A stretch of DNA of 64,000 nucleotides, from assembly GCA_026419785.1 (NCBI GenBank), contig JAODTK010003765.1:434001-498000 (forward strand), given 5' to 3'. The stretch is from Sclerodactyla briareus (lineage: Eukaryota > Echinodermata > Holothuroidea > Dendrochirotida > Sclerodactylidae). Both the position numbers and the translations under genes were made by a program. How positions within the stretch are numbered: the stretch's first letter is position 1; the number at the start of each line of letters is the position of its first letter. The notes beneath the pieces were generated by a model that saw nothing but the letters and a program-made list of their open reading frames with translations, made no database searches and was not told where the DNA came from. Positions 29,860 through 61,590 of the stretch are shown in pieces.

Positions 29860-29955
29860 CACCACACCACCACCACCACCCCCCACCACCACCCCCACCA
29901 CCACCACCACCACCACCCACCACTCTACTACTACTACTACTACTACTACTACTTT
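29860..29955 (+). repeat. (CAC)n then (CTA)n microsatellite
   Basis: Trinucleotide run of cac/acc followed by tac/act triplets, right after the reverse-transcriptase tail. Copy B has a short (cta)n at 39422-39436. This may be the expanded 3' tail of the retrotransposon. Confidence 0.85.
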
Positions 29956-32460: not shown

Positions 32461-32545
32461 TAGACGGAGTAGCTCAGTCGGTAGAGCTCCAGACAGCAAA
32501 ACCATTGGCTGCGTGTTCGGAGCCATGACGTCGAGGACTCGATTC
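32461..32545 (+). repeat. tRNA-derived SINE head
   Basis: GACGGAGTAGCTCAGTCGGT begins a tRNA-like segment with a perfect A box (TAGCTCAGTCGG) and a degenerate B box (ggactcgattc, 32535-32545) at tRNA-like spacing. The anticodon region does not fold as a normal arm. The same head occurs at 56171 in the split copy, where the middle is deleted. It would supply a polymerase III promoter. This is a SINE, not a working tRNA gene. Confidence 0.55.
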
Positions 32546-34300: not shown

Positions 34301-34379
34301 TCCCCGAATCACCCCCACCGCCCCAGTTGAAAACCCATTATTGCAACCGGCGGCACTAGAACTATTATAGAAGGTGCGA

Positions 34380-34914: not shown

Positions 34915-37900
34915 AAAGTTGGAAGTTTACAGAATAGCGACTATGCCGGTACATGTGATCCACTAGTGTTAAAGTGTAAAAGTCCGTGTATGCCACAACA
35001 CATACATGAAACTCGTGGATTACAGTAAAAGGCGTCCTCGCCGTCAGCAGAAAATGAATCAAATAGAGCAAAGAATGTTAATCGTATTCTGACTATATGA
35101 ACGCTTCCCGCCGATATGCATGGCAGGTGGCGTTTGTATTTTCTATAACAAAGCGAATCGTTGCAGATAATACAATAATACTGAGTTTTGATTAGTCAGT
35201 AATAAATTGATTTCTCTAAACGTCTGACCATGTTTCCATACTTGGCGATTACGCTGGTGGGAAAAACAACATCAACCCGCGAGCGGAGCGAGCCGATGTT
35301 CCGGTCTTACATCACAGGCGACAATAGCGGAAAATATAGCCGGTTCATGGTTTGTGATGACAGTGCCATTACATGAATAAATGTCAGCTTAAAAATACTG
35401 TTGAAACAGGCGTTTTGACTTTGGTCACATCGTATCAGCCTCATCACTTCTGTGCACGGTGGCCCTTTCACCAATCGGTGATTTGCATGTGGGAACGGAT
35501 TTGACTTGTTCACCTGTATCAGCCTCCTCATTCATATGTGCAGGGTGGCCCTTTAACCAATCGGTGAGTTGCCCTGAACAAAGATATGTTGGTGTGATTC
35601 GACCGTGGGATATATACTGAAGGAGCGATAGCCCCCTCTATTTTAGGAACGCTTCTCCATATCGTATGCTTTGGCCTTTAAGGCTAGCTGGAAGTGGCGG
35701 GTTCACTCTCCCTGGCGAAAAACTTCCCCCGGGACACAGCAGCTCACGGGGAAGTCAATTAGCGTGTAAAGTTAATAGTGATGGTAACTGTGTCACGGGG
35801 GTCACCTCAATTTCAGCTAGGATGACGTGAACGTTGATTCTGGGCTCTGTAAATAGTTTATCTGCGAGGGCTATGCATATTTCGAAATTCGAAGAAAGTG
35901 AAGAATCAATTTCAGAAGTTGAAAACGTAAGTTAAAAACATAAGGGTCTAAGCCATTACCGGGACAGAAAACTTCCTGGAAAAAATTGTGATAAAAGTCG
36001 GAAAGTGGACTGCGACAACCCGAAACGGAGGCGCGCAAAAGGCGGGAAAAATTGCGCACCTATCTCGGGCATGCTTGAGGCATTCGAGAACGAAAATGGG
36101 CACTTTAAAACTCGGCCATCATTTTGCTTTTGCTTTGTTGCTCAAACCGGGAAGATGGGATTCATTTTTTCCACCACTTCCAGGATTGCGCCCATGATTG
36201 ACATCGACTATACAATAGATGTACTTTTTTTAGCAAGAGCAGGGGTGGGGTGCAGTTCAATCTGGACCTTTATAAGGGTTTGTTTTTTCTTTCTTTTTTA
36301 ATTTATTTATAAGTGAAATTATATGAAAAGCTGGAGCCCTACATAGTTTTTTTTTTTTTTTTTTTTTGAGCATTCCATTTCCGCACAAGCCTTCAGAGAT
36401 GTGGCGGTTTTCACAGGACCGTCAGCGTGATGCGGAGTCTGGTGTTGGTGTACGTTTATGCGATTGATGAAACGGACGTTAGCAGCTATCGAAATTGAAG
36501 TCCTTCACCTCGACTCCGCGAGGCAATAAAACGGAGCGACCATATGCATAGGTCGTATGCTGCTATGAACGATGCTGATATTAGTGATAATCGCAGTTTG
36601 TGCTTGTTCTATATGAGGCCCTGCATGTGACTATAGGGCGACGTGCTACATCAGTTCAAGTTTCCTGTCACCTCAATTGACCGCATTGAACTAAATAAGG
36701 AATATATAGAACACATGCTCTATCTACAAACGTTTCACGCCAAACTGAAGGTTACCGGTAGTAGTAAGTTATCTTATAATATAGTGCAAAGGTCGGTAAA
36801 CATAGTGATGATAACAACTTTATGGAACAAATGCGCAATATGCTAGTCAGATTATCTCGGTTGTAGGGTATCGAACCTTGCAAGTTTTGATATATTCTAT
36901 GTCGCGACCTCAATACCTGAGTCCTGGTTTCAAAACCTCAGTGTGTCCACAGACCACCAAACGTTCACCCGTTTTATGCTAGTGTAGAAAGTAGCTACAC
37001 GAGTAAAGCTATACTCTCGGCTGTCGGAGGAAACGTTGTATGCAGGTCCCGGGAGCAGGAATTCTCACCATACCTCGTTACTCAGGGCATCCTGGAAGAA
37101 GAACAGGGGGGGGGGGGTATAAGTAGCGCCTTGCGTCAGATAATCGACAACACTTCTATGGCGTGATCTCTGGTAATATGACATTGTGGACCATGTGATG
37201 GACACTACATTGTGATACACACCTCGAATTACCATATCCCTACTGTGGAGATATTATGGTTTTGGCATCGTCATCGCCGCCGCCGCCGCCGCTGCACCAC
37301 TCTGGCGGATGCCATTCTTTCAACGAAAACGGACATAATAGTGTGTGCCTTGTTCGGATCCATATGAAACTTTACACCACATTGATCGCTGATGGAAAAT
37401 TTGACCCGGATCAACTGTGGGCGGAGTCCGACCGAATATCACCGGAAATGTGGATTTTTTTTTTGTGAAACGAGTTCTTCGCTTATTTGGCGCGGTTTTG
37501 ACCGATGGCGCTTACTTTGAGACCAACTCTTTCCGACCCCATACCAACCCCACCCGAAGGCCATTTTGAACTTGTGCTAAATTTCTACCAAAAACAGAGT
37601 TTTGGGCGTTTCGAGGCTGTGCGATTGTTCTGAGACCAACGTTTATATTTCATGCCCCATACGACCAACCAGACGACCATTTTAATTTTAAAACCTATCG
37701 GGTAAATGATTTCCTTCCAGTTTTGCACAATAACGATCATTTTCAGACCATATTTTGCCCCATATATAGGACGCACCCAACGACCATTTTAAATATCTGA
37801 CAGATCTGATTTCACTGCAGATTGCATTATTTAGGAGCATGGGTGGCATTGGAACTCAACCTCAAACTTCCCTGGGTCATGCATCCCCTATTCAACAAGA

Positions 37901-40900
37901 TGAAAATGACATGCACCCTCTGATTATCCGAAAATAGTGGGGATATACAGTGGCGGTTTACGAGCGATGTCTAGTTCACCCCTGTTCAGGCTCTTTCACA
38001 AAATTGAACGCCAAGCGAGAAGGGATTGAACGTCGAATCTTTCATTATTTTCTTAAAAGGGTTTATATTGAAGGTAAACAGGAATATAACAACCAATCAA
38101 AAACCCGGAAAACACGAACCGCCCCCAGAACCCCAGAACAAATTTAGGACCTGTGATCTTACTTTCGACTCTGAGGAAAATCGAGCATTGTATTACAAGG
38201 AGAATCCACCCCCTAATTGATGAACATAATTCCGTCACCCAAACCAGCCACACCTAAGGTTAGATGCACCGCTGAGCTGGTTTGGCCATTCAAAATTTAG
38301 CAAAAAGCGGTGGGAAAAAACTTTCAATAGGATACAACAGCAATTGTCAATGCTTGACCGTGAGCAAGGCGTTCGAAACGATCCAAAGAGGCACACTAAT
38401 AAATGATTTGCAACAGATCCTCGCGAACAACGAAATATGAAAGATGTTCATACACGGTCAAATTAGACGCCAAACTAGGAAATCTATCAGCACGAACATC
38501 GGGAAACCCAGGGTGACAGGCGATGTGCATTATTCTTATAACATACCTGGCCAACTATTTGAAATCGGATGAAGATGACATTGATGCAGTTATCCACCCC
38601 TCTCAGTTAGTTGAATCATGACTACAGCACACAATAACACCGAAACTTGTCACCGTGGACCAACAATAACGCTGCGATGAATCTCTGGGCCATAAAATGG
38701 GGAACATATACTACAACATCGAACAACGAGTGAATGAGAAACTGACAAGAAGAAATCTGAAAATCAACAGCATGTAACTGAGAAAATTTCAATCCATAGA
38801 AAATGGAATGGAAGTTGGAAGAAATGGAAAATTGTAGAAGTTTGTGGGTTACCGAGAAGACCTAACAGAAGAATGGTATAACCAACAACGCTTTCAACAC
38901 TCTGTCAAAAAATTCAAGAGCAGAGAGTCGGAACCAAGCATGCAAACTCGGATTTCGTCCCTAAATAAAGAATAATTTTCTCTGTATAATTGCGAACTGG
39001 GCAGGTCCACAACGAAGGATCTTGATCACAACAATTGACACTTTCCAAAGAAGGACTACTCCGCAAGTGTCTCAAAAATCAGATGGACCAATAACAATTG
39101 GATATCAAAACGATGAACTCTATAGATGTGGCCAACCAAAGCCTTGGTCATCCGTATTAGACATAGACGATTGACATTTCAGTCACGTCGCGAGACTCCG
39201 AGGAAGAAGCTCCAGCGAGATCGCTCTGAGAGAAGAAACTTTGAGACATTACTACTAAGCCCAGTTGGGAGACCCGTGAGTGACTACCTTGCTCGGAAAA
39301 ATCGAATCGCATTGCAGGGACAATAAACATATAACTTTTGAGAAGGCAATAAACCTTGCACAAAATCGTGATACGTGGCGGATGTTGATCAGTGAGCATG
39401 TCGGATAGACGAGACTCACACCTACTACTACTACACTATATACTACGTTATCGTCAGATCGCAGATAAGCATACTACTACAGCAAGACCTTCCCAGTCTG
39501 CCACTCCGCCTGCAAATTACCGGACCGGTCGTTTTTTCTCCTGTTCCGGTATTTCACTTAGTTAAAAATCTAAAAAAAAAAGGCTTTTAAAAATCTCATT
39601 GTCCGATGGGTGATGTACCTTTTTCAAGGTTTGCCAGTCTGAGAACTCTGTAATCCAATTAAAAAAAAAAAAAAAACAAACAAACTGCGAAACACTAACC
39701 CTTTAGTGATGAGGATTAGTCCGGCAGTGTGACACAGTCTTGTGCTTCCACTAACATCGGAGCAAAAGCAGGATTTAAAACCGTGACTGTCAGAAATTCG
39801 TTAGCTGTTAGTAGCTTACTATTGAGCAAACGGCTACACACCGATGTTTTCCATCGATCACTCTACTCTTTGGAAACTTTTTAAACTCTATTTTTATGGC
39901 CTCGTGGTTCAACATGTTAAAAAAAGGGGTTTTTTAAAATTCCCAAGCATACTTTTAGTACTCTACATATTGACCAGTACACGAACAATACACGTGTTGA
40001 ATACACCAGTACACCGGACCATACACACGGTGTTGTTATAGCCTACACGGTGACACAACACATACGCACGCGTGGTATATACAAGCACACGACCATAACA
40101 CGGCTGTTATAAAAAACCGTCCACTAAGGATGGGATTCAATGTAGATGCGTATGCGTGTCCGGCCTGGATGTGAAAAAATCACATATTTTCCAAACGAAC
40201 GTTTGTTTCAGAAGAGAAAACACTGTAAGTCTATGCGAAAATACACATAAAATGCAGCAGCCCATGTAAATGTCGGTACTTGCCTTTTTTAAGTAAGATA
40301 TTCCACAAAAATATTCGCATCCGCATGAGACTTAGTACATGTACTTTTCGCCTATTTAGTGTTGGTGGCTTCTTATAATGATTTTTGCCTCTTGGAAATA
40401 ATATCTATCTTCGCAAACTAATTAAATAGGACATATCAATCACTGGCCCCGCTCAGTCACCGGAACTGGCGCGATTTTTCACTGCCTACTGGACCGCATA
40501 TATAAGTATCTCTGGGTCCCAGCCTAACACTGGACACCCACGTTGCGATTTCAGGTAGTCACTGACGTTGTGCAGAAATGAAAAGCCAAAATCGGGGGAA
40601 GGAAACACATGAATCGCAATTTGATGAAAAGCTGGGATCTGGCTCTCTACTGACTTATGTTCCTAAATAGTCAGGGAAGTAACAGTTCCATTTCCCCATA
40701 CAACGGTCAGTCTTTGCGGGACTTGGGGCCAGAAGAACCATCAACTGTATTAGTTTGAGGTGGGAGGTTTTGCTAGCTGTAACAAGAATTATTAGGCATC
40801 GCAGGCGGACATGATCGAGCTTATTCGTCAAGGACACCCACACGAACAGGACTGTATGGTCAAGAGAACGATCATCATAGGCATATAGAATGGATTTTGT

Positions 40901-41086
40901 GGCAGTGAATAGTATTTACATAACGTATATAAACATTCCCATTCAACATCAAAAAGTCGATGATAAAATAGGGTACCGAGTCCCTCCCCACGCATAGCAG
41001 TTTATTTAAATATAGAGTGTGAAATTGCCACCTCGATAGGAGGAAAAGGCGAAACAATTTCAAAATCTATGCAGAAGGCTTTGAGT
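34915..41086 (+). repeat. 8-kb repeat, copy B, left part (interrupted by the Polinton)
   Basis: Matches copy A from 24950 to about 31583, with many one- or two-base indels, then ends at 41086 where the Polinton begins. The match to copy A resumes at 55387. It carries its own reverse-transcriptase remains (38400-39410), the GC-rich hairpin (35261-35310) and the module array (37500-37810). The SINE at the position of 27299 is mostly deleted. A poly-T run at 36348-36367 is private to this copy. Confidence 0.75.
38400..39410 (+). pseudogene. Reverse-transcriptase remains in copy B
   Basis: Homologous to 28900-29830 in copy A. ITYLANYLKS (38541-38570) and KAINLAQNRDTWRMLISEH near 39343-39400 are in readable frames. 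The FxDD region is more damaged than in copy A. Frame changes are frequent and lie at different places from those in copy A. It is the same plus-strand non-LTR polymerase. Confidence 0.6.
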
Positions 41087-41230
41087 AGTATGGAAAATGG
41101 GGATCCTGCCCCTTTCACCCACAACATCACCCAAGGTTCTCTCTGAAAATAATTGGGGGGAGTAGTCATGATACCTCAGGTCGAAAATCCATAGCCCTCG
41201 TCGTGAAACACCTCTGGTGTTCACATGTTG
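41087..41230 (+). repeat. Polinton left terminal inverted repeat
   Basis: Matches the reverse complement of 55245-55386: agtatg, aaaatggggatcctgcc, tcaccc, atcacccaaggt, ctctct, and more weakly on to cgtcgt.gaacacc. The pairing is good for about 75 bp and weaker for the remainder. Confidence 0.85.
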
Positions 41231-41279
41231 ACTAAGATATAGGAATCGGGATTATAAGGAGGGGGTCTTCATTATGGTT

Positions 41280-41510
41280 TTTCCAGATCCATGTCCAATT
41301 ATCATCTATTTTAAACCTGACGCCGAATTCATAAATTTTGAAAAAGCTCCTTTTTTGTTTATCTAAAGCTGCTTGTACGAGTTTATCCTTATCTGGTTAC
41401 AGATGCAGTTTTTGCTTTTTTAATTACTGTTCTTTCATTTCCTGGCACTTGGCCAGTTTTTGGTATAAGTAGAAATTCTCTTGGATGATCGGCACCATCA
41501 TCCAGAGCTT
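41280..41510 (-). CDS. Polinton left-arm protein fragment, minus strand
   Basis: Minus-strand coding signal in two frames joined by a shift near 41400. The upstream part reads DDGADHPREFLLIPKTGQVP. The downstream part reads DKDKLVQAALDKQKRSFFKI and then FGVRFKIDDNWTWIW. Charged composition and length continuity argue for a real gene broken by an indel. I do not recognise the family. It lies next to the left terminal repeat and would end inside or near it, as terminal genes of Polintons often do. Opposite-strand frames here are short. Confidence 0.45.
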
Positions 41511-41519
41511 GTGAAATTA

Positions 41520-43940
41520 TTCACCAATCGTATTTAGTTTGACCTGCCAAATTCGAATTTCATTATTTTTTTTAGTTTAGTTGTTAAGTGTTTTGGCAAA
41601 AATCATACTTATGAATAACTATTCAACAGACCATAGGCTGGTGATGAAAAACATCCCACATAAGAGTTATTCCCATGAAGTCATTAACAAGATTGGTTGT
41701 TACATTATTTGGTCATTTCCCATGAGGTTTTTCCATATTAATAATCATACATTAATACAGCCTCATTGATATCTGAATTCATATTGCAGGTTGCTATTGT
41801 ATGGAATGATCTGTCTCGGTTTACTTCCAAATCTACTCATTAGTAACATTAGTTTATTTCTAAGTAAATTCTCAGTGGCAGCCCTTTATTATTAATCTCA
41901 TTACCATCTGCATCTTTGATCCTGAATGTCATTACAAATATGATCTTTCCAACGGTTTTTAAATTGTAGTGCTCCATGCTGTATGTATGCTACTTCCGTA
42001 GTATGGGTCATAACCAATGGAATGACACCCAACATGTTAGATGGTTTTCCGTTATTATATTATTGGTGGAAGAATTTGATCACAGTGTAAATTAAATACG
42101 CTTGAATGGTGCATGTCCACTTTTCCAATGTGGCGACCACGAGACAAACCATCGTATTAACGTGGAAAAAAGTCTTGCAATAGCTTCAGAAAATTTAATA
42201 GAACTATTTTTGGAACTACAAGTTTCAAATTCACATTGTATGAGTGACCTCATCGGCCCACCAGAGATAATCTATGGTGATCAAATGCAGTTGATCCACA
42301 TTGTAAAGGCACCAGCGGTAAAGGAAAATTTCTTAATCCACTCCAACCCTATATTTATTGGTTCACCTGTAGAATATTGTAATACCTATCCAAAATATAG
42401 CTGATTTCAAAGTCATTTTTAAATTCCCTGACCTATGTCTATAGATTGTTAACCACGTCAAAATGACTTTTCAAATGTTTAATTCCTAAGTCTAGTCATT
42501 ATTTAAAATAGAGTTTTTTAAAATAAAAAAAAACAGGTTACCACCAGCCATTTCAAAGCAATTATTCAAAAAGATACAAAGTTAGTAGTATATATTCACC
42601 ACCAGGCAAATAAAGAGCCTTTGAGCAAAACAGACTTACAAGCATAGAACTATTCAAATATTGAAACATTTGGCATCGATATCTACCAGATATGTGAAAC
42701 TTATGTAGTACCAAAGGTAATCTGATGAGGTCTATAACGATTGGAAATCAACCCGATGAATTTTGGGCCAAAATAAAATTTAAACTTTGTAATTTGGTTA
42801 GTAGGACATGAAGGTGTGGGGTCAGCTAAGGCCACCTACCAACCATACAGACAGTTAGAATAGACAGCGTGAGTGGTTCATGGTCTAGTAGCTTGTCGAA
42901 GGCTGCGGAAAGAAATGAGGTGTAACACCATGCAAAATCATTATAAAGCATTGAATAATAATATAGAAATGTCAGCATATGGAAACATATGTCATCGGTT
43001 CCTGTTGCACAGATTGGAAGCAACACGTCAATATCCATAGTAATTGTGGGGCACGTTATGCGGGAATTCAAATGTATTAGACGGTAATTATGCCATAGTA
43101 GTGTACAAATACACATGAAGGCGTACACAGATTGCAAATTAAGGGCTTCTTCTGGTAAAATCAAAACCTAGTGCAGCTAGATACACAGTTTCTCACCTTT
43201 CTTAAGGTAAACAAGTAGTAGGCGCTTGGAGAGGGTTGGTCATACCACAATAAGAAGGTTTTCTACAGATATTGGCCACAGAGAGACACTCAATGATAGT
43301 GAGAGAACTTTTGTTTATTGTATTTTAGGGGGCCACAAACTCAAACAAAATAAGTTTTTGACACCGGGCACATCTAGATGCTATTAACCTGAGGTCAGTT
43401 TGTCTATATTAGAAGGATGGTATTAAGATCAGTAGATATACAAAGTAGTTTAAATCGCTACAAAGCTACTGCAATTGTCGGAGCAAAGTAGATTTGTAGT
43501 CGGTCCAGAATGTTACATGATGCCTACAGATATAAACTTGAGGATGGTACATATAGGTTATAATAATGCAAATTCAAATAGCCCCAGAAACAACCACAAC
43601 AAATCGGTACGAATGATTATTTTAATCCTGCGGGTGTTATTGAGATGAAGCTGCGAAGAAGGCCATATAACATACCACAATCACCTGGTAGTGAACCTGT
43701 AAGTGAGTTTGATGATATGACTAGCGATGAACCAAATGCCAACTTCAAATCATGTTGAGAAATAACAACTAAACAGTGAATCAAAACTATAGGCACACCA
43801 GATCCACAAATATCCGAACTGCAAGTGAACATGTGAAATGACAAAATTGCCATCATCGTTGGGGTATGGGATTGCAAGTGTATATTTCATATAGCTTTAT
43901 GAGGTACTTAAAATACTCTACTTCAGATGTCTATTTTCAA
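41520..43940. other. Polinton left arm, coding density high but genes unresolved
   Basis: AT-rich DNA with competing open frames on both strands: a 100-codon plus frame at 42102-42404, a 112-codon minus frame at 42826-43164 and an 86-codon minus frame at 43617-43877. A plus-frame stretch at 43626-43740 reads KLRRRPYNIPQSPGSEPVSE. None shows a motif I can place. Polintons usually carry capsid and cysteine protease genes, and these are the most likely occupants. Which strand codes is not settled. Confidence 0.3.
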
Positions 43941-43954
43941 GTAAATAACTACCA

Positions 43955-44280
43955 AAGCTAAAACTACCAGTAACAAATGCCCACCACCATTTTCTGACAG
44001 GCCATCAACAGACCACTCAGTGCATTTACTAGCCCAAGATCAAAACACACCCGATGATGCATGCAGTGCATCAGCCGTTTAGAACCTAATTTTCCATACA
44101 TTTGCCAAGCTTTGTAGGGAATATCATTTAATCTGTTGTTTAATACCACCACGCGGGGTTGGACTTGGTTTGGGTTGTAGGGTAGGCACAACACTTTTAA
44201 CACCTGCTAGGATGCTTACAACAATAGTGCTAATAGCTAATGCTCTAGCAGGTCATTTTACGAACCACGATTTAACATGT
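43955..44280 (-). CDS. Small Polinton protein with hydrophobic segments
   Basis: Minus-strand frames with LARALAISTIVVSILAGVKS (hydrophobic helix), then a proline-rich linker PTLQPKPSPTPRGGIKQQI. After a frameshift come KLGSKRLM and a second hydrophobic stretch, ending near 43965. Frames change at about 44125 and 44060. Small proteins with two hydrophobic helices recur in invertebrate Polintons and could be capsid-associated or membrane-active. That is inference from layout. It lies immediately downstream of the coiled-coil-like gene on the same strand. Confidence 0.4.
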
Positions 44281-44289
44281 TCTCTAAAT

Positions 44290-44740
44290 AAAATTCTGAC
44301 TTTTTCCGATAGTGTCGTATTTGTTTAAAATTTGATGATAGTTCTTTTAGTCTGTTAATCTGACCACGCAATGCTCTATCAATTATACTTGCAGCTTCCA
44401 ATATACACTTAATCTTTATTGCCAAAGTCGTTTATTCGTGCTTTGATTTCTTTTTCAGCTTCTCATTTTCCCTATCGTGCTTTGCGCTAGTTTTTTTGTT
44501 CTGATAATATAAAATCGTCTGATTCTTTCAGTTTTGGCCAGTATTGACAAGCTCGCCACGAGATTTTTGTAGAGCTTAATCGCGGGAGTTCTTATACTAA
44601 GATCTGTTGGGTATAAACTGTCACATCCTCTGTTCTAGCTAACACATTATAGAATAGTGCTTGCAATCTCACCCTGTATTGATTGATCAATATCATTAGC
44701 AATTCTGGAAGGTCTTCTATTTACAATACTTAGTATTCAG
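44290..44740 (-). CDS. Polinton helical/coiled-coil-like protein, minus strand
   Basis: A strongly charged minus-strand coding segment, read as RRPSRIANDIDQSIQGEIAS, then TPAIKLYKNLVASLSILAKT, then (after shifts) KARINDFG and ELSSNFKQIRHYRKKSEFYL near the end at about 44290. Lysine/glutamate richness and heptad-like hydrophobic spacing suggest long helices. Three or four single-base shifts break it. No enzymatic motif is present. It is probably a structural or accessory protein of the element. Confidence 0.45.
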
Positions 44741-44749
44741 GAGCGCAGA

Positions 44750-45238
44750 TTTTTTTATATTTCAATAGCTTGTCTGTGCTTTGGTGGTAACTTTTTGGTG
44801 GATGTGGAGTAGTCAAACAAACCTTTTATTCCGTATAGTATTTACATTACAATTGTGATTATAATACTATAGTATTTACAGTAAAATTGTTATATTACTG
44901 TATAGAACTTGTTTTTATCTTTTATGAGTTACTGTTTATATCCTTCTCTTTTTTACTAAAGATAAATTCTTAAGTTTTAAAATTATCATTAATTTTTACA
45001 TTGGGACTTAATCTTATCTTCTTTCATATGGCTCATAGAAATCATTAATTTAGTTATTTTTAATGACTCATCAATTCGTCTAGATCATTAACCCACAGGC
45101 ACCTTCTTATTTATTAGTGATCATCAAATGAATAATCATTGATGAAATGATGTTTATCAGCATCATCTTCCAGTGCGGGATTTTCTTCCCTCACATAATC
45201 ATCCAATGCAAAGTCATCCCATTGTTATTAAAAAGTAA
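44750..45238 (-). CDS. Possible start of the left-arm operon-like unit, fragmentary
   Basis: Minus-strand patches: an acidic frame DDYVREENPALEDDADKHHF (about 45150-45210) and TPHPPKSYHQSTDKLL or, one frame over, STKKLPPKHRQAIE (around 44760-44810). Between them lies a very AT-rich stretch (44830-45100) with many stops and small repeats such as tacagtaaaattgtta. It is probably the 5' part of the preceding gene plus an intergenic gap. It meets the plus-strand genes head to head near 45240. Confidence 0.3.
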
Positions 45239-45239
45239 T

Positions 45240-46460
45240 ATTGTATTAAATAAAATTGACAACGCAATACGGCCCACAAATTATAAAATCGTTACAGAAA
45301 AGTACGTTAGCATTGGCTGGTGAAGGTATTAGACATCGAAATGTTAAGGTTAGATTTCCAAATTGGTGAGGCTTGATGTCATAGACCGGGTCAACCAGAC
45401 TAGCTTTACATTGAATTAGTATTGCCGATGCAAACAGAACGACCTGTACCACAATATTGGTTTCTAGAAGCAATTGTAAAACGATAAGTGGTAAAATAGT
45501 GAAGGCAATGAAATTCAGTCCGGGACGATGAGATGTGTATCACTGGCTTATAGCGATTTCATGGTTACCAAGCGATCGGCTCGAATATGGGGGTATCAGG
45601 GTTATTGTAACTGAGAATACATTGAAATTGAAAATGAATTGCGAAGATAAAGACATTCACCAAACGATGGTACAAGATAAAAGCCATTGCCGATGCCTAT
45701 GGGAACCGATTTTACGTCCTCTGGAATTTGAGCTGCTGAAAATCATATGCCCTATTACCAAGCTGGCCTCAGTGACCGTCTGGGTATTGACTTAAATGTA
45801 CGGAGTTATGGTCGTGTGATTAAATGCACAGACACACCCGCTAGTTATAAAAGATAGTGGAACTCAGTTGAATAGAAATGATACCTAATGCAGAGCTAGT
45901 AGAATGATTAGGAAATCAGTATACAAAACAAAATGGCTTTGACTTTATGAAAGGACTATTGAGACACAGAACAATGATTGAAACAAAAGAGAAACAACTT
46001 GGATATATTCTGAAACAACACAGCAAAAAGCTAGTGAAGGGTAACTATGGTAGTTGAGGATCCCTTGAAAGGGGGCTCGAATTATCGGTAGAACACTGAG
46101 TCAAATTCCGTACAATCCAAAAATTAAATAAGTAACCAGGACTATCGAAGGCAGTCCGAATCAAGTGGTGCGCAAGGCATGCAAGATATAAACTTTTGGT
46201 TGACTTTTCGGTGTATTTGTAAGAACATTTTTTGTCAACTCCCGTTCTTAAACTGGAGATTTGCTAGGCATTGTTAAAGAACTGACCTTTGTGATGTAAC
46301 TCTGGCGGATTATTTGAAAGATAAATACGCTCTGTGGTTAGACATGAGAGTAGTGATGATAAAAAAATCACGGAGGGTAGGAGATCGAAAATGGTTCGGA
46401 AGGTCTACAATTCACGGGAGGAAATCTGCAGAAACCGCGGGAACCGGAATGGTAGATTAG
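45240..46460 (+). CDS. Candidate Polinton structural protein
   Basis: A long plus-strand coding region split by indels. Readable blocks in order are RPTNYKIVTEKYVSIG (45270-45317), DRLEYGGIRVIVTENTLKLK (within 45535-45795), ERTIETQ (around 45951) and, near the end, DVTLADYLKDKYALWLDMR (46292-46348), then a C-terminal part in another frame. About 400 residues in all. It is transcribed toward the ATPase and lies directly upstream of it, where Polintons often place morphogenesis genes. I cannot prove a capsid fold, so 'structural' is inferred from position and from the absence of enzyme motifs. Confidence 0.5.
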
Positions 46461-46470
46461 TTCAGCACAT

Positions 46471-46573
46471 TAAATTATATATATATATTATATATATATA
46501 TAGATCTAGATATATATATATTATATTATATTATATCATATATATAGATATAGATATATATATATCTATATAT
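46471..46573 (+). repeat. (TA)n/(GATA) microsatellite
   Basis: About 100 bp of ta repeats with interspersed ga and tta units, between the candidate structural gene and the ATPase gene. Such runs are prone to length error in assembly. Confidence 0.9.
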
Positions 46574-46579
46574 GAATAA

Positions 46580-47185
46580 ATGTGTTCCCCAAGTATCCTC
46601 ATTCGGCAATCGTATGCGGTCAAACCGGGTGTGGAAAACAGACAGTTTGTGTTAAATCTAGTAGAAAATGAATAAAAAATAGTTTGAACCAGCGTTATCA
46701 TTTGTCCCGCTGGCGTGGAGAACGCTTATAAAAAACAGGGACTGGGTCGGCAAGAGTCGGAGGATGTATCTCTTGGATTCTACCAATTACATGATATTCA
46801 AGAGATATTACGAACGTTTCAAAGGGGATGAAACGTTTCCCCATTATAAACCGCTGATTGTGAGCAACTAAGGATTTGTATATAGGAAAACATAAAGATT
46901 CTAATTGCATGATCGAGCCGAATAGCGTGTTTTAGTGGTTAGACATGCCAATTCAAAGTTGTTGGATGTTGTCACAAAAATATAATAGTTGTTATGAAAA
47001 GATTGAGAGAAACGACAAAATGGTTGTGTTTCTTTATTGCAAGATCGGATATACGAAAATTGTTTGAACGAAAATTGATGTCATACGGAGTATAAAAACA
47101 ACTAGGAGCAAAATAAATGAAATTTTAAAGGCAAAAATCATTCAAAACTTATACTTAAAAAAGATAAACCTACAAGGTAAAGGTG
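46580..47185 (+). CDS. Polinton packaging ATPase (FtsK/HerA, A32-like)
   Basis: Plus-strand ATPase of the FtsK/HerA type used by Polintons and related DNA viruses to package genomes into capsids. The Walker A loop is clear at 46597-46638: PHSAIVCGQTGCGK. The base after the Lys codon is lost or gained, so the Thr/Ser falls out of frame. A short block before Walker B reads NRDWVGKSRRMYLLDSTNY (46731-46790). The Walker B region near 46830-46860 is scrambled by a frameshift and the acidic pair cannot be read. Further blocks (LSQKYNS at about 46970, and a tail ending near 47175) keep family order. About 200 residues, the usual length. Confident by family, but broken as sequenced. Confidence 0.8.
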
Positions 47186-47199
47186 GGTGTAGTTGGTAA

Positions 47200-48880
47200 G
47201 AACTAGAGTTATTGTAATAAGAAGTTACAAAGTTTGTAATAAGAAGTTAACAAGGTATGGAAGAAGTCCCTATGTTTACCACAATTATCCGCTTGAGCTA
47301 CCTATAATTTCAGGAGTATATTATATTAACTACAGAAACATTATCAAATCTTTTCTATTGTAAATTATATCCCTCTTTAGTAAAACCAGGATGATTAGCA
47401 CAAATTCTACACGAAGATGTAGAAAAGAATGTGCCAGTGGGAAAAAAAGCCTGTGTTGATAAGCAGGATTAGCACATGTCATTAGGGTGGTGATTCCGCT
47501 AATATTTTCCGGAAACCATTATTCCTTGAAAGTTTCGAAACTCGGAATTACGAAGAACTTCAAAAATACATTATAGATACGACGAAATTGGTCATAGGAT
47601 GAATCAGGTACTTAGGTTGATAAATAAACAATTTGGTTAAAGCTCTTGTTATGGAGTAGAGGAAGTAATGCAGAAATGATGTTTGAGCTTTATCTAACAA
47701 CGAATTAGAGAATGATCCAATAGTCTCAAATGCTTTATCACATTTTTTTGGTGAGATTAATTATAAATTTGGAATAATCTTATAGCTCCACTTGCTGCTG
47801 AACTTATAACTGCAAGAACTGTGTCATGTAAAAATAATAGTGATACTCATATAAATGAACCAAGTGGAGGGAGAGGAACCCCAACAAGGGAAAAACAAGT
47901 ACTTAAGGTTACAAAAAAGAAAACCAGGTAGAGTTGCTGCCGACCAAGACTGCAGAGTACAATGAAAACAAAGGAAAAACAAAAAATTGAACGAACACAA
48001 CAAGAAACATTCCTCCAGATGATGGTGTTGAAAGTTGATTTACTTGCCTTACATAGGATTAACTGCATTTGCATTGTAGTGGCGGTTTATGATTATCAAA
48101 GTTTAAAACTCATGAAAAGTGAACCAAACGTTCAAGTGTCTGAAGCAGTCGACTCTTTTCATTTCGAATAATAATTAAAAAATTAAAGATAATAACAAAA
48201 AATGCCAATCAGAGTACGATAATATCGTAACACCTGTATATCACGGAGAAATGGTCTTGGGGGTAAAAGTATTGCATATAGCATGCTTGCCGAGTAAAAT
48301 GCTAAAATTAAACCCCGCCGATCTTGGTAACTGGGACGTCAACGAGGTTTCAAATTGACTGTACTGTTAGCAGTGCAATAGCAAAAACAAGGAATGGTGG
48401 TGAATCAGGGTCTACTACCAGATAAATTATAAAGCCAACAACTTAAATATTTAAAAGGGCAACAATAGCTAGCTGGTAGTGGTGCGATTATAAATGCGGA
48501 GTTTTAGTGTACAATATTTCTTATTTTCTAATCTAAAGATGGTTGGCAGAGGCTCACGAAGAAAGAAAAAAGCCCGAATTTAGCTTTAGAACACAAACTC
48601 GCAGAGAGAACGAAAATGGCCGAAGAAAGACCTAGACCATCTGGATTTTAATTAATGAAAAACTATGCAACGAGGAAGGCACCAAAGCAAACTCTTTTTC
48701 GAACATCGATCGAGCTAGGCAAGAATACTACATCAGGAAGGTCCAAGGTATGATTTACCTGAAACTGTTGAAGCGCTGCAACCGATGTAAGTGATTTCTA
48801 TAACCCAGTGAAAGTAAAAAAACAGGTGTGAAAATATTGGTCGTTATAATTGGCAGGGTCGTTGTCGTCATTGCAAGTTA
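47200..48880 (+). other. Polinton region between ATPase and integrase, genes unresolved
   Basis: Plus-strand coding patches: YEELQKYIIDTTKLV (47550-47600), NNELENDPIVSNALSHFFGE (around 47698-47757), PSGGRGTPTREKQ (47860-47900) and MKTKEKQKIERTQQETF (47962). A later segment, 48614-48760, is basic and may be a small core-like protein before the integrase. No protease triad or capsid motif can be read. The region is about 1.7 kb, room for one or two genes. Confidence 0.35.
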
Positions 48881-48889
48881 TGAATTACT

Positions 48890-49900
48890 TAAAAAGTAAA
48901 CAACCAGATTATCACTATGGATAAAAGAATGACAATAAATTAAAAAAGATATACTCTTCTAGAGGTTATTGGGAAAGGTTGAAGGTGCAGAACAAAATGG
49001 CAGAAGCCACACAAGTCCCAAAGGAAAAAACAAGAGCATGGCTATCAAAGCGGCAAATGTGGCAAAAATTTACAAAGCACCGCCAAAACTAATTTCCAGA
49101 CCAACCGGTAAACAGGTTTAATGCAATTCCAAATGATATGCACCAAGAAGATCTTTTATTTTTCCACATGATAAAAATGGTAAGCAAACTTATAGTATGC
49201 TTTAACCGTAGGCGACGTAGCCAGTAGATACAAAGAGAGCAGAAGGTCACTAACGGACAAACTGACAACCCAAGTAGCGAGTGCACTAGAAAGAATATTT
49301 AAAGAAAGCCCATGACTTATCATTAAAACAATCAAGTAGATCCTGGGGGAAAGAATTCACGGAAGGCGTCATAAAATTCATGCGTGAGAAAGGTGTTACA
49401 CTACAAGAGGACGACGTCGGAAAACCACAGAGCGCAAGGGATGTAGAACGGTTAACAGAAACGCCCTAGCAGAGAGTTATTTCACAATAATATGCTCAAG
49501 GAATGAACCTAGAAGGTAAAAAATACAAAGCGCTGGGGAAAAAAATTACCAGAGTGGTCCGAATTAAATCATGAAAAAAACTGATAATAGCGCTGAAACT
49601 ATTGATGCAAATTAAAGGAAAAATCTTCGAACACCTTCGCTAACACATTAGTGCAGAAAGAAGGAAAAAAAATTGATGGTGCGAAAGTTAGGAACTTGTA
49701 TGCCCCAGGTGAAGCGAACAAGATCCAGAAGAGAGCAACAGACCATATGGTCGATTTAAAACATATGGATCGACAATGCTTTCACAAAGGCAGCCAACCG
49801 GGATTACTTAGCAAATGGCTCAAATGAGCACTTTGTCAGAGCGGAAATGCAGATTATACCAACAGGTACACGAATTACCGCCGAAATGAATTGGCTTGTG
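48890..49900 (+). CDS. Polinton integrase (retroviral-type DDE)
   Basis: Plus-strand retroviral-like integrase. The N-terminal part includes GYWERLKVQNKMAEATQVPK (from about 48968), then a basic helix and the 'PhDkNGkqTY' strand. The catalytic core shows the first Asp in VGDVASRY (49208-49231), the second in VDPG (49336-49347) and the Glu in VE R near 49443-49451, in an 'hraQG.vER' setting. The spacing fits a DDE core. The C-terminal region continues to about 49890 with proline-rich end sequence and no readable chromodomain. At least six frameshifts separate the blocks. It would catalyse insertion of the element. It lies between the unresolved unit and the polymerase, all on one strand. Confidence 0.8.
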
Positions 49901-49949
49901 TATAACTGGCTATATGGAATTCCCCCAGAGCCTCAGTTTTTCGTGTCTT

Positions 49950-51470
49950 GCAAACTTGAAATATTACAAATTTGAAATCAACCGTGACGTTGCCAAGACC
50001 ATGATGTTGAAAAAGACTTCAGTGGACGTTATATATAATATTTTTAACATTCATTACTCGGGGGGTGGTTGGGTGAAGCGGTAGGACAGAGCGCTTAGGA
50101 TTAATGGAGAAGTTAAGGGATACGTAAATGTATAAGTGAACGTGTTTCGCGTCCTTGCAAAGACGTGCGTGAAAGTGCCCGGCACAGCAGAGGTTAAAAC
50201 AAATCGACCAATATGCAAGTGGAAAATCATAACCGAACAACAGAGGTAAATTACTCGGGCTAGGACTGAACATACAAAGGATGACACAGGCCATTATAAT
50301 TCTGTGTAAGAAACAACTCTCACAATGTTAATTAACAGAGCTCACATGTGTAATACAAAGAGAGGTTTAAAGCTGACCACGGGCAAATAATAAGGTGTAA
50401 GGAAGAAACCTCCCAATGTAACTAAACGAGGGGTTTCCTCCAGATGTGGACCGAGTGTGGCGAGAGATGTATAGAGAAGAGAGGCGGTCGGTCCACATCA
50501 TGGGAGTTCTGTTGATTTTACGAAAATGGTTTTAAAAGCAATGAAAGTAGATTTAATGCATTTCTCTGTAAGGATTCAAAAACTGATGAAACCACCATGT
50601 GCGAGGCGAAGTCTGTGAAGATTATTGATACCTGCAATAAACCTAAAGATTACAATGGTGTTAAACACGTTAAATACGTTAATACGGGTTTCAGGAACTT
50701 AGTGGGGACATAATGATAAAAAATGTCTCGAATTGCAGTGGTAGTACTGCACGAAAACATGAGAGCCATTCAGTGCGTAAAAGAACCCCGGCCTGTACAA
50801 GTGTGGCGTTATACAAAAGTCTGTGAACCTCATGAGGTAAAATGTGGACGTGATTAATGCAATGCAAGCTCTTTATATCACGAGAAAAAAATCTAAAAAA
50901 ACAAATACAAAAAAGTATAAAAGAAGTTTTCGAACATTTAGGGCAGTACATATTTTTTATCACTCTAAAAAAGTGATAATAAATGGCTTAAATAAATAAA
51001 AAATCTATAATAAGATGGTAAAATGTCAAGATTTTACAGATTGAAATGTGCGAATTGAAGTCATATGTTGAACAAAATAATATCGCTTACCAGAAATCAC
51101 CATCTGGGAAGAGAGGATTCATTAAAAAGATTACCTCAGGGACATAGTGGAACCATAAATCTAATCGGCAGCAGTTTCAAAGGGAACGTTTGCAGACTTG
51201 AAGTTAATTGTTGCACCCAATATATGCTTTACCAGAGACACCATCGGGGAAAGAGGAGGATTACATTAAAAAAGAGTACATGCAAGACATCAGAGGTTGT
51301 GAACGACAAGAAACTCAGATTGTAGAGGTCGGACTGGTTCAGTATCTGAGAACTTGGGTAATGGACGTGCCAAACAACTATCACAAGAGTAGACCAAAAA
51401 ATGTTGTACGAACAGCTAAAAGTGCAGTAAAAACGAAAACTGATTGAAGAATTATGGAAATTAGGAAGTT
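49950..51470 (+). CDS. Polinton genes of unknown function between integrase and polymerase
   Basis: Plus-strand patches: an open block of about 60 codons, FYENGFKSNESRFNAFLCKD then KSVKIIDTCNKPKDYNGVKH (50517-50705), ending at a stop after FRNLVGT; MSRIAVVVLHENMRAIQCVK (50723 on); and YALPETPSGKEEDYIKKEY (51216 on), open to a stop at 51445. These could be two or three small genes. No homology is claimed. Bases 51090-51140 and 51231-51285 are near copies of one another (accaga.a.caccatc.ggga), which may be a local duplication or an assembly error. Confidence 0.35.
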
Positions 51471-51479
51471 TCAGTTTCA

Positions 51480-54400
51480 ACAAAATTTTGAAATAAAATT
51501 GAAAAAAGATTTAAAACAAGATGGAATACTGAGTTGTTGGGGGAGATATTCAAAATGGCAAAAAAGCGATTTTAAACCGGGTGAATTGGAGGCTAACTTA
51601 CAAACAGCAGATTGAAATACTCGAAAAAGCTTGAAAAAATGGACAATCAGGTTCGGGGTTTATAGGCGAAAGAGTCCTAAATTGACTCTGAACAATGGTA
51701 AATATATGAACCATTTAAAGGTGGTGGGTCTTACATGTTTTACCTACTAAATTGAAAGATACAAAAGTGTTAATAATGTGAAAGAACAAATGGTGACTGT
51801 TAAGGTGGGCTTAGAAGTGCCCTATTTCCAGTATGTAAAACTCAGAGAGGACCCCCGAAGTTATCAAGAGTGCTGGTTTAAAATTTGAGATTGATAAAGT
51901 GCTCAAACCTCCTATTTCACAAGACCAAAGTAGAAAGACCAAACGATTTATCTATTCATGGCTTGATTGGGAAGGTGGTGCGGTCTGGGCATATCTATTT
52001 CGAATCATCGAGTAACAAAAGAGGATTGATGTAATGTTATGAGAAAGATAATAAATATATACACATGGATAAAAAGTCTCAGTCGTTATGGAACGATCAA
52101 GAAACACAATGCAAATGGTATCTGTTCGAAAATGCCTCTACACAATTTTTATTCGGGGGAGTTCTTGAGGGGCACAAGGAAGACTTGTAATGGAATTGGA
52201 GACAGAGGATCAAAAATTGTAATGCCCTAAGAAATGGCGCGAAATAAACTAAAGACTCTGAAGAAAAAAAAATGGTTGAGTGGAAAAATGAGAAATTTAA
52301 AAATCACGCTAGGACAGATGAAGGTTAAATACGGCATATGCTGATTGTGAATGTAATCAACCGAGAAGTCGGGGTGTGCGGTAATCCGATAAATCAAATA
52401 CGCAGAATACTCCAAACTGATTTTTCTAGTATGGTACAGCATTGTAAGATGGGATGGAAAAGTTGGTAAGCCTAAGGTATAAGAGGGACCAAATGCTGCT
52501 GAACATTTGCTAAAATCCTCGAAAAATCTACTGAACAAAAAATTTATAGAGTATGAAAAAACCGAAACCTATTGTTATGACATCGATGATAGAGCGACGA
52601 CATGAAAGGCAAAACACATTGTCCATATGTAAAAAGAATTTTAATATGGCGAAAGTGTAAAAAGACCATTGTCACATAACGGGAGAAATAGAGGCGCAGC
52701 CTCACGATTAATGTAATCTAAAATTAAAAATTACAACCGGATAAAACGTCATTCCCGTCATTTTCACAATCTAGGGGTAGACGCTCATCTTATCATGCAA
52801 GCTGTTAGTAATTCAAGGGGGGAAATTGGTTGTATTCCAAACATAGGAAAAAAATATTTTGTATTTCGAACATTTTAAAATCAAGCAGAAAGAGAAGGTT
52901 AATACGTCATTTATGATGATGTTGAAGTAATCTAACCGAGATTTCGGGGTGGGCTGATAATCCCGATAAAACAAGTACGCAGAATACTCCCACATGATGT
53001 TTTAGTTATTGTACATCATTGTAAGATGGATGGCAAAAGTTGGTAAGCCAACGGTATACAGAGGACCAAATGCTGCTGAACATTTGCTAAAATCCCTCGA
53101 GAAGTTACTAAAAAAATTAACTAGAGTATTTGAAAAACCAGAAACCTATTGTTATGACATCAGGGATTGATAGAGGAGACATGAAAGTGCAACACTTTGT
53201 CATATCTGTAAAAGACTGTTAATTGTTTTTTTTTATGGGAACGTTGTAAAAAGCCCCCATGTCACATCCGGGAAAATATAGAGGCGCAGTACGATACTGT
53301 AATCTAAAATTAACAATACAAACCGGATTTTAAAAACTGTCATTCCGTCATTTTTCACATTTAGGGTTATGACATTTATCAGGCAAGTGTTACTTCAAGT
53401 GGGGAAATTGGTTGTATTACAAACAATATGGAAAAAAATTGTCTTCAACATGGGCAATTAAGATTTAAGACTACCTCAAATTCCTCAATTCGTGCATTAG
53501 ACAAATTTGGGTAAGAACACGATAAAAATCCTGGGAGGAATAACTAGGAAGATGGTTCGACAAGAAATTGATGGTAACTGAAAGGGTGTTAATCCATATG
53601 AGTACATGGAATAGTTGGGGGAAAGATTTGAGAAAATACATTCACATAAGAAGCATTACAGTCCGTTGAATGATACAACCAACACTGATGATTATGAACA
53701 TGCCCAAATGTGTGGAATACTTTTGAATGTAAAACCTTGGGTGAATCACGATTATACCTGAAAAACTGACTGGGTTGTAATGGCGGATGTTCTTGAGAAT
53801 TTAAACAATAATTCTTTAGAAACTCACAGCTTAGACCCTGCTTTACTATAATCTCCCCGGTTTGTTGGGTGGTGCTCTAATTAAAAATTCGAAAAAGAAT
53901 TAGAGACTCCTGATACGACAACACTTGTTTGTAGGATGAAAGGTTTAGGGCACCGGGTATTTCAATGGTGTGTTAGTAAGCGGTATGCAAAAGCTAATAA
54001 TTAATACATACCCGAATCAGAATATAATCTGATGAACCTAAACAGTGTTATTCAAGATCGAGATGCGAAAATCTCTATCGGTGGGTATGAGTCAATTACG
54101 TACCAGTCAATACGTTCAACGGGACAGGCTGGACCGAAAAAAAATTTGAAATAAAAGACTTAAACACTGGAAACCAGATTCTTTCTTTTTTTTTTTTTTT
54201 TTTCTTTTTGATGTTGGGGATTATTAGAAGGTGATTGGAGTATCCAAGAGAGTTGCATAAATCAATAAGATTATATTTGGCTCCAGAAATTGATTCCCCA
54301 AAAAAAGAGTGGTTCTCGGATTATCAACTACAATTGGTGGGTGAGCTCACCTGCTCCAAATATTTAAAAATTAACTCCAAAAATATAATGAACAAAGAAA

Positions 54401-55290
54401 CTATGTACTGCATTATAGAAAATTGCCAATTATACCTAAGCCGTGGGCGTAAAGTTGCCAAAAACCTAGGATACTGGAATTTCACCAGGCCTTGGATGAA
54501 GTATACATAGATTAAATACAAAATTACGCAAAGGAGCTAAGAGTGACTTCGAGAAAGACATGTTCAAAATCATGACAAGGTGTGTTTGGAAAAACATGGA
54601 AAATGTAGAAATAAGATCGGTGGAGTTGGTTAAATCAAGTGAAAGAACCTGATGCGCAACTAATAGCAAACAATTATGCTAGTCATAAAATTTGCGATCT
54701 AGGTGCTGTGCACATGATAAAACAAACACTTGTTGAATAAACGACTGGAGGTATGGCTATTTTGGATCTTAGCAAGTGGTATGTATGATTTTTTTACCAC
54801 AACTTGAAAAAAAAATACAATGACAAGTTAATTTATTAATACATATTACAGATATACTCATTTTAATAAAAATAAAGATTATATACTCTGATATGGCCAA
54901 AGATAGCATATGCATGACACAGTAAACCTACCCCAAAACACATTCAATGTTCAGCGAAATTAATAAAAAGTTGTAGGGAGGGAAAATGAAGATGAGGTGA
55001 AGGGACTCAATAATTGAGATATCGGTATAAGACAAAAAATTATCGAGACATTGTTGAATGATGTCTTGATGCCAAAGAAGGCAAAGGGTGTGAAAGGATC
55101 GAGTCACGAAAGAAATATATAACACAGAAAACTACACGGAAGCACTCTTGAAAAGAAAACTTTCGTGCACGGTAGGAACTTTATTAGAATGAAGGTAATT
55201 TAAGCTTTAGTCACCGTGTAAACCAAGGTATCACTCGATCCGTTAGATACCAAGAGGTTGCAAACGGAGATGGTGTTCAACGACGTGCTT
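51480..55290 (+). CDS. Polinton protein-primed family B DNA polymerase
   Basis: A plus-strand protein-primed B polymerase that would copy the element. The 5' part (51480-52330) is poorly resolved (FEIKLKKDLKQDG; DRGSKIVMP). The exonuclease I motif appears as YADCE (52337-52351) with the DxE pair. A family-specific Cys/His insertion shows as CHIC (53198-53209). Palm and thumb blocks follow: VSKRYAKANN (53972-54001), a long open frame 54235-54510 with SDYQLQLVGEL and YLSRGRKVAK, then EINKKL (54957) and VTKEIYNTENYTEALLKRK (55105-55160). The DTDS metal-binding motif near 54850 is damaged. The end runs into the right terminal repeat. About 1100 residues once the internal duplication is set aside. 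Confidence 0.85.
52275..53440 (+). repeat. Direct duplication inside the polymerase gene, about 580-bp unit
   Basis: Unit 1 (52275-52850) and unit 2 (52850-53440) share in order: gaaggttaa.tac, aatc.aaccgag, tacgcagaatactcc, cattgtaagatgg, gaccaaatgctgctgaacat, cctattgttatgacatc, atagaggcgcag and ggggaaattggttgtatt. They differ by many single indels, and neither unit is intact. It repeats the polymerase's exonuclease region and zinc-finger-like segment. Confidence 0.75.
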
Positions 55291-55386
55291 AGGATTTAGA
55301 CGGAGTATTATGAATCCAAAGTTATTTAGAGAGACCTTGGGTGATTTGGGGTGTGAATGAGGTAGGATCCCCATTTTACACATACT
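55245..55386 (-). repeat. Polinton right terminal inverted repeat
   Basis: The reverse complement begins AGTATGTGTAAAATGGGG and goes on to atcctacc, tcaccc, atcacccaaggt and ctctct, matching 41087-41230. The polymerase reading frame ends just inside it. Confidence 0.85.
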
Positions 55387-56434
55387 ATTTGTATAGGATT
55401 TTGGACAGGTTGCTTCGATGGTTTACCCTTCCCTGCACCCATGCTTCTATCATAGTATGTTTAAACGTTCGGGAAGGGGGTGGCGGATACGTGCCTTCAC
55501 TCAGGCTTCAGGGTTTTACGAAACAACAGCTTCATATGTCCGGGTTGATTTCATATCTACTAAACCACATTGTTCAAGGCCTCTATTGATGGCCTGAGAT
55601 GGAAATGTATATTGTGAAACTAAAACTAAAATCAAACATATAATACACAGTGACGGTTTACAGTCAGAGTTTTAGTCAGGTTCAGTTACACAACTATTCA
55701 GCGCCACATTATATAATATAGTATTCATTAGGGTCCAGCAGTAATTCTAGTGTGTCTATAGACAGGTGGGAAATATCGCTAGTCTGCTCTATACCGCCAT
55801 CAGGTCTGGTATAGGGTGACAATAATGTACTTAGCACGAAAACGCATAAATAAAAGTCGACACAAGATGTTAGCTGTGAACTAAGCTGTATATTGGACTA
55901 TCAACTATAGGATGTTCCGCCCTGATGTGAACTACACCAATTTACACCAACAATGCACGAGAGGTCCAACAAATTTGTGAACACGGTACGTCTGTAGAAT
56001 GCTGCTGCGATAGGTTGATGATCTGTCCGTCACCTTTTCTTTATAGAGGGTTACGTTTTCAGTAATTTTTAGGGGAAGGTCTGAGTTTATTGTCTTATCT
56101 TTTTATCCATGCGCTATTGTTGATTACTACAATACATTTGTAATTACGTTAATATTAATTAACATTAATAGACGGATTAGCTCAGGCGGTGAGCTCAAGA
56201 CGGCAAAACAGTTGGGAGGGAACAAGACAGGGAAATGCGTGCTTATCTTAGTACGGGGGGACAAGTCACAAATGATCATGGGTAATATCGGTGACGCATG
56301 TGGAAAAAGTGCTAACTAAGCACATGATATTAATATTCTTGAGTGATTGGAGCGGACGGCTCTCTGTTACTGCATCTTGCTCTGACGGGAGCCTACCGCT
56401 GTATGCAGAATCATTGCATTGGGAGCTATAATTT
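55387..56434 (+). repeat. 8-kb repeat, copy B, right part
   Basis: Resumes the match to copy A at tttgtatagga (31583 in A) and continues with gcggatacgtgccttcactc, tagacaggtgggaaatatcg, ctacaccaatttacaccaac and cacaaatgatcatggg, to a common end at attgcattgggagc (56434, 32932). Relative to A it lacks about 210 bp (32507-32716 of A), including the distal part of the SINE. Confidence 0.8.
56171..56216 (+). repeat. tRNA-derived SINE head, truncated copy
   Basis: GACGGATTAGCTCAGGCGGT retains the A box. The B-box half is missing because of the deletion described for this copy. Confidence 0.5.
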
Positions 56435-60869: not shown

Positions 60870-61258
60870 CGATGTTTTCTACTGTGGACGTTGGAAGGCA
60901 GGGTTACGCCATGTTTCATTCCTCTTTCGGATTCTTGAACACGTGACCTCACGGCGTAACAGATCGCGACAGTCAACAACAGAACTCGTCACAGCTAAGA
61001 CGGCAGCTGCTATCCCCACAAAAAGTCCTGCTTGTGTCGTTTGTTGGTTGTAGTGCCTGTAAATAATGTGGAATGTGGAGCCTCACTGGACAGTGGATTA
61101 ACAGACGAGTGTAGTGTCCTGCAGGGATAACTCAACATGCGGAATGTTACTCCTTGGATGACAAGAGTTGTCGAGGTTGCTGAGATGTCATTCATTTTAA
61201 AACGGGTGAAGTGACGTCGGGTATAGGCTTCATTCGAAACACATGCCGTCATGATAGG
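60870..61258 (-). CDS. Ig receptor gene: end of Ig domain and membrane segment
   Basis: Minus-strand coding segment: NDISATSTTLVIQGVTF (E-strand-like), then a damaged F-strand with Cys (SYPCRTLHSS), SVNPLSSEAPHSTLF, a short stalk, and a hydrophobic run GIAAAVLAVTSSVV followed by basic residues (RDLLRREVTCSRIRKR). This order of Ig C-terminal half, stalk, membrane helix and basic stop-transfer fits a type I immunoglobulin-superfamily receptor. The D-x-G-x-Y-x-C motif is disrupted by a 1-2 base loss. The frame stays open past the membrane segment to about 60880. Near-duplicate of 61270-61585. Confidence 0.45.
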
Positions 61259-61590
61259 AAAAAATACACGGTAAAACTCAAATGAATCCAGACGGCAGCT
61301 GCTATCCCAAACAAAGTCTGCTTGTGATCGTTGTCTGTTGTGTTGTAGTTGAACTGTAAAACTACTGTTGTGTGTGGAGCCTCACTGGACAGTGGATTAA
61401 CAGACCCGGTGTAGTGTAGTGTCTTTCCGGGATAACTCAACCTGCGTTGACGTATCCTGATGACCAAGAGTTTGAGAGGTGGTTGCATGAGATGTCATTT
61501 AATTAAAAATGGTGAAGTCGGTATATAGTTAATCGAAACAACAATGCAGTCATGATAGGAAAAATACACGGTAAACTCAAATGAATCCAC
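60983..61590. repeat. Tandem duplication of an exon-sized segment, about 300-bp unit
   Basis: Unit 1 (60983-61285) and unit 2 (61288-61590) share gacggcagctgctatcc, gagcctcactggacagtgga, gggataactcaac, gagatgtcatt and tcatgataggaaaaa.tacacggtaaa, in order. Unit length is about 300 bp. They differ by small indels. Confidence 0.8.
61270..61585 (-). CDS. Ig receptor gene: duplicated exon
   Basis: The second unit of the duplication, read on the minus strand: LVIRIRQRRLSYPGKTL, then SVNPLSSEAPHTTVVL, then a stalk and GIAAAVW. The hydrophobic run is cut short compared with unit 1. It is either a real duplicated membrane exon allowing alternative splicing or a collapsed haplotype or assembly duplicate. 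The Cys of the F strand is not in frame here. Confidence 0.35.

Follow-up and report, generated by a model that had tools for sequence, protein, structure and literature searches.

A Polinton/Maverick and its empty site

We analysed 64,000 nt of the Sclerodactyla briareus assembly GCA_026419785.1 (319 Mb in 3171 contigs), namely positions 434,001–498,000 on the forward strand of contig JAODTK010003765.1. This whole stretch is called the window below, and positions are counted from its first letter. At about 41084–55389 the window contains an insertion of 14.3 kb. An earlier note, made from the sequence letters, had named it a Polinton/Maverick, and we arrive at the same identification because a family B DNA polymerase (PolB), inverted ends, the size and an empty site agree.

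The limits of the insertion were set by the matching empty site, which is located in the same window. Self-comparison revealed that the host segment at 24966–32931 (plus strand) aligns with 34926–41082 and 55388–56426, and that the intervening 14.3 kb are absent from the first segment. The left junction reads GAAGGC-TTTG-AGTAGTATGG and the right junction CATACTATTTGTATAGG; the empty copy reads GAAGGCCTTTGTATAGG, with an uninterrupted TTTGTA at 31582–31587. TTTG flanks the element on both sides. With element limits of 41086–55387 the flanks are TTTGAG and TTTGTA, compared with TTTGTA at the empty site, and with limits of 41084–55389 only TG is doubled. A third, partial copy of the host segment was found at 62656–63986. 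If the host duplication is a true duplication, the insertion is younger than it. At the empty site, presence or absence of the element could be tested at a known position.

The ends of the element align as inverted repeats: 41086–41152 and the inverted 55387–55322 are 81% identical over 69 columns, and a longer, gappy alignment scores 133 (at most 79 among 300 random pairs). Taken alone, the part past the first 69 columns is modestly above chance, with a score that was reached by 4 of 1000 random pairs. In copy L052 from elsewhere in the genome, the left end aligns with the right end of the window element over 183 bp and with its left end over 127 bp. The inversion described in the earlier note is thus retained, and the length of ~140 bp given there is plausible for the window copy. 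The left repeat (41084–41215, plus strand, inner limit approximate) starts AGTAGTATGG, and the right repeat (55270–55389, minus strand, inner limit approximate) has the outer end CATACTATT. As an end motif, the left side reads AGTAGT and the right side ACTATT, which is one letter off (ACT)2, and we count the pair as (AGT)2//(ACT)2. Several copies start AGTAGTATGTAAAATGG. A fuzzy end pattern matched 14 of 25 loci. Three of these repeat loci already counted, so 11 distinct left ends remain, that of the window among them. AGT precedes AGTATG in six of them (in one with an inserted base) and is absent in five.

Genes of the element and its copies in the genome

Motif patterns were used for PolB, integrase and P-loop, and only one of their finds proved useful. 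This was L005, a Polinton-like contig detected by the PolB pattern (IMG/VR 3300028392_002905; PolB frame of 1299 codons) and later extended as L021. Relatives of the L005 PolB numbered 7213 among 7992 candidates scored, and the best 120 were taken as queries. All 120 matched the window, and all 363 high-scoring segment pairs (HSPs; E≤1e-3) fell inside the element. The HSPs lie at 52544–54860 in three frames and were colinear in 108 of the 108 queries with multiple HSPs; reversed queries gave none. These sequence matches confirm a family B polymerase in the element, as had been read from its palm blocks, and of the predicted Polinton enzymes only PolB is firm. The PolB region as a whole spans 51635–55130 (plus strand), its outer limits being set by how copy L054 aligns and by a weak profile match at that place.

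Part of this region, 52295–53439 on the plus strand, is a tandem duplication of ~570 bp (52295–52855 and 52872–53439) that is single in L054, the only fetched copy covering it. Its halves differ by 6 transitions and 39 transversions, and the duplication may be an assembly fault. Pfam searches of 10 stop-free window pieces returned a chance-level name only. A genome-wide search with PF03175 (3 of 3 candidates scored) missed the window and matched one other place, a second polymerase piece (L001; C1756:139567–139674; E 1.3e-4). This piece is unmatched by the L005 PolB and perhaps belongs to another Polinton lineage. A further PolB copy of the same family is located at C2317:145563–146870, on the window's own contig and ~340 kb away.

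The element likely carries an rve-type integrase, judging from a weak sequence match to the block of the first Asp. We ran a profile of 120 integrases related to that of L021 (the best 120 of 462) on 3826 stop-free pieces from ten copies and the window. It matched copy L047 (E 0.0024) and the window at 49196–49312 (E 0.11) at corresponding places and with overlapping profile columns (89–127 and 92–127); a third match (E 0.45) falls elsewhere. The candidate core with its DVASRYK block was placed at 49196–49466 (plus strand). Pfam rve was the sole family on the L047 piece (E 0.03; 15 bits, below the curated cut-off of 32.6), and the window piece had no Pfam family. By tblastn, the best 120 L021-related integrases gave nothing better than E 0.13 in the window. 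Integrase P0199 found two weak places in the genome, neither of them among the fetched copies. From the DDE integrase of the earlier note, the first-Asp block therefore survives as a candidate.

A P-loop is encoded at 46576–46668 (plus strand; AIVCGQTGCGKQ) and reads GQTGCGKQ. The proposed Walker A loop is accordingly present with its last S/T missing, and similar readings occur in copies L045 and L049. The best 120 (of 1767) L021-type ATPases gave no tblastn match in the window better than E 0.13 and no match as a profile, and the P-loop piece hit a single weak P-loop family (Zeta_toxin, E 0.12) and no ATPase family. We regard it, on its motif, as a candidate packaging ATPase; to speak of all three enzymes, as had been done, is an overstatement for this one. 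Finds of the P-loop motif pattern in other sequences were rejected as other P-loop proteins, many of which resembled phage clamp loaders by eye. P-loop, integrase candidate and PolB all lie on the plus strand, with PolB reading outwards, and the previously described layout of a minus-strand left arm and a plus-strand right arm is not borne out by these parts.

The unassigned left arm (41216–46300) is colinear with the other copies except that a stretch of 556–610 bp, present in all ten fetched copies, is missing from the window at 41594/41597. We tested 104 left-arm pieces, comprising 102 of the 136 stop-free pieces of at least 58 codons from the window and the ten copies as well as two shorter window pieces. 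They gave two chance-level Pfam names, no virus-like Pfam family and no PHROG match, so that the several candidate structural genes proposed for the element are not borne out by this set. Neither a capsid nor an adenovirus-like protease was recognised among the 104 pieces; the protease profile was not run on the genome. Two window pieces had no relative among viral contigs, and the first of them had only chance matches among PDB sequences. Pfam on 10 pieces from the window and copies yielded the weak rve on L047 and otherwise chance-level names.

Other copies, for which the earlier note had suggested a search, are present in the assembly. The left end gave 43 matches at 40 distinct places including the window (40 of 97 candidates scored), the integrase region 43 including the window (40 of 61 scored) and PolB 41, none of them in the window (37 of 167 scored). 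The family therefore has at least about 40 copies. Stretches of 8.7–9.9 kb were fetched from each of ten copies, and the order of matching parts was the same in all of them, as far as alignable. Kimura two-parameter (K2P) distances were 0.115–0.162 among the copies (45 pairs) and 0.142–0.178 between the window and the copies. The stretch 49925–50516 is absent from all four fetched copies that span the place and is, from these alignments, likely a window-specific insertion. Copies L049, L050 and L051 have in common ~1.2 kb at window position ~47250 that is absent from the window and from the spanning copies L045–L048, which gives two length classes. This module has short repeats at its borders, and L050 contains a stop-free piece of 101 codons there. 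L054 has an internal deletion from 42169 to 51635 and ~4 kb of different sequence in the PolB region.

Outside the element, the host sequence contains two-copy tandem repeats at 33596–34301 (period ~319 bp) and 60998–61589 (period ~299 bp). Five host open reading frames (ORFs) of at least 150 codons were tested and belonged to no noteworthy family. The window gave no Rfam match and no tRNA.

Read error and decay

The longest stop-free frame in the element has at most 113 codons. Our initial reading, an old and decayed element, was dropped on account of low transition:transversion ratios, many indels and histone controls with the same damage. Seventeen comparisons were made. Ten set the window against one copy each, two paired other copies with each other, two covered the sides of the host duplication and three concerned tandem duplications. 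Transition:transversion ratios were 0.15–0.73 (≤0.54 in 16 of 17), with 0.41–1.16 indel events per substitution, mostly of a single base. The Polinton pairs differed by 9.0–13.0% substitutions and 59–95 indels per kb, and the arms of the host duplication by 10.4–11.5% and 80–92 indels per kb. Under natural divergence, transitions are more frequent and indels much rarer; a pattern with few transitions and many indels is typical of uncorrected long reads.

Histone genes served as controls. The clusters L055 and L056 differ by 183 substitutions (52 transitions, 131 transversions) and 267 indels in 2262 bases, corresponding to ~8% and 118 indels per kb. In the genome, the histone family gave four matches, with 7 of 7 candidates scored; all four are incomplete and one has a stop. 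The H4 gene of L055 is spread over three frames, and one H3 gene of L055 and the H3 gene of L057 over two; two further H3 copies are in a single frame, at 44–52% identity to typed H3. H3 pairs among short contigs showed 7.3–10.4% differences, ratios of 0.1–0.6 and 92–126 indels per kb. Genes that the host needs thus carry the same type of damage as the element, worst on short contigs. The divergence between the sides of the host segment is close to that of the histone clusters, so the sides arose by recent duplication or else are haplotypes that were put in the wrong place. L055 and L056 are located on the short, error-rich contigs C1362 and C2362, and the assembly is apparently uncorrected in repeats.

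Because the damage has an error-like signature and the histone genes are broken alike, we consider read error left in repeats the likely main cause of the stops and frameshifts. The Polinton family would then probably be young. This makes a recent element, as suggested in the earlier note, the favoured reading, although it is unproven and frames are broken throughout. Neither ORF integrity nor age is readable from this assembly. To the explanation as a whole, a probably young Polinton family, some 40 or more copies strong and damaged mostly by assembly error, we give a probability of about three in four. Its fuller version is tentative. In it the family is young and recently mobile, numbers 40 copies or more and falls into two length classes distinguished by the 1.2-kb module; P-loop, integrase and PolB share one strand, with PolB pointing outwards, and the dead look of the copies is due solely to repeats that went uncorrected in the assembly.

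Several observations weigh against error as the main cause and would suit a family that is truly old, in which real stops and frameshifts accumulated by neutral decay since a past burst. Stops occur in 39 of the 41 PolB matches in the genome and the other two span at most 56 codons; decay would give the same. A search for U6 (48 of 23887 candidates scored) yielded a single gene, which is nearly perfect, and 14 of 16 actin matches are stop-free, with one open exon of 402 bp. Two other actin regions are split, one by one frameshift and one by two plus a stop. The clean U6 and actin stretches mean that error is uneven, and repeats would need to be worse than unique sequence. The simplest account would be that correction reached unique sequence but not repeats. 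Three of six H3 pairs, all involving L057 from a 508-kb contig, show 3.7–8.1% differences and ratios of 0.5–1.2 and hence lack a strong transversion excess, so the error floor is not one number. Letters common to at least three of ten sequences numbered 194, versus 43 in one simulation of independent errors, which indicates that some divergence is real. The columns of the ten-sequence alignment gave no clean separation of error from divergence, and we estimate the true divergence among the Polinton copies and between the host arms at the few percent by which they exceed the histone-cluster level. Vertebrate elements, too, are mostly degraded according to PMC8097293. However, the low ratios and the frequent indels of the 17 comparisons are unlike natural decay and recur in the host duplications and the histone clusters, and the copy pairs fall within a narrow K2P band. 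We therefore regard an old, decayed family as unlikely.

The two host segments may be two haplotypes set in tandem by the assembler, the element being a heterozygous insertion; their difference is slightly above the 8.1% between the histone clusters, which fits this possibility, but the third partial copy at 62656–63986 suggests a real tandem family, and we doubt the haplotype explanation. Two points count against the Polinton explanation from another side: no clean 6-bp target duplication was found at the window junctions, and the presumed capsid protein of L021 had no match in the genome, an empty answer that is uninformative. That capsid genes were not recognised and that integrase and ATPase are weak would agree with a large DNA element that has a family B polymerase but is not a Polinton in the strict sense, whether adintovirus-like or belonging to a further Polinton-like virus group. 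PolB and an rve integrase also occur together in adintoviruses, according to PMC11071296. The size, the inverted repeats with their end motif, the large number of copies on chromosomes and the relatives of the polymerase suit Polintons, however, and the groups overlap by definition. We consider such an element quite improbable.

By analogy with what is established for Polintons, the life cycle of the element can be outlined. The protein-primed polymerase would copy the linear element, the rve integrase would join its ends to a staggered target cut and, if capsid genes are present, packaging would fall to the P-loop ATPase. Should the family be young, its host would be useful for seeking Polinton activity. 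The case also calls for caution, since age can be misjudged when it is read from frames that are broken in a draft assembly. Cheap controls expose such error: the transition:transversion ratio, the number of indels per substitution and copies of histone genes.

Comparison with known systems

We found no paper tied to this Polinton family in the literature, which shows little. The IMG/VR contig 3300028392_002905 (L005/L021) is Polinton-like and has long open frames. Its likeness to the window element lies in PolB, which is at best 38% identical over 91 columns. It contains an rve integrase (PF00665, E 6.7e-8) on the strand opposite to its PolB, unlike the window. Its other ORFs of at least 100 codons, including the ATPase and the presumed capsid, had no match to the window at E≤0.05. 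Adintoviruses, with which the element would have PolB and an rve integrase in common, are defined in PMC11071296 by an OTU-like PolB domain, an integrase chromodomain and a hexon, features for which the frames of the window element are too broken.

For vertebrate Mavericks, PMC8097293 gives (AGT)2//(ACT)2 as the commonest end motif, though not the only one, sizes of 12.7–24.6 kb and inverted repeats of 46–1447 bp. In the usual vertebrate layout described there, the modules point inwards; one strand bears PolB and ATPase, the other integrase and capsid genes. Exceptions are the cane toad, in which the modules point apart, and the clawed frog, in which they are on one strand (PMC8097293). The window element differs from the usual layout in that its plus strand carries P-loop, integrase candidate and PolB alike and the reading direction of PolB is outwards. 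It resembles vertebrate Polintons/Mavericks in its inverted repeats and their length, its end motif, its size of 14.3 kb within the reported range, its protein-primed PolB, its likely rve integrase and its many copies.

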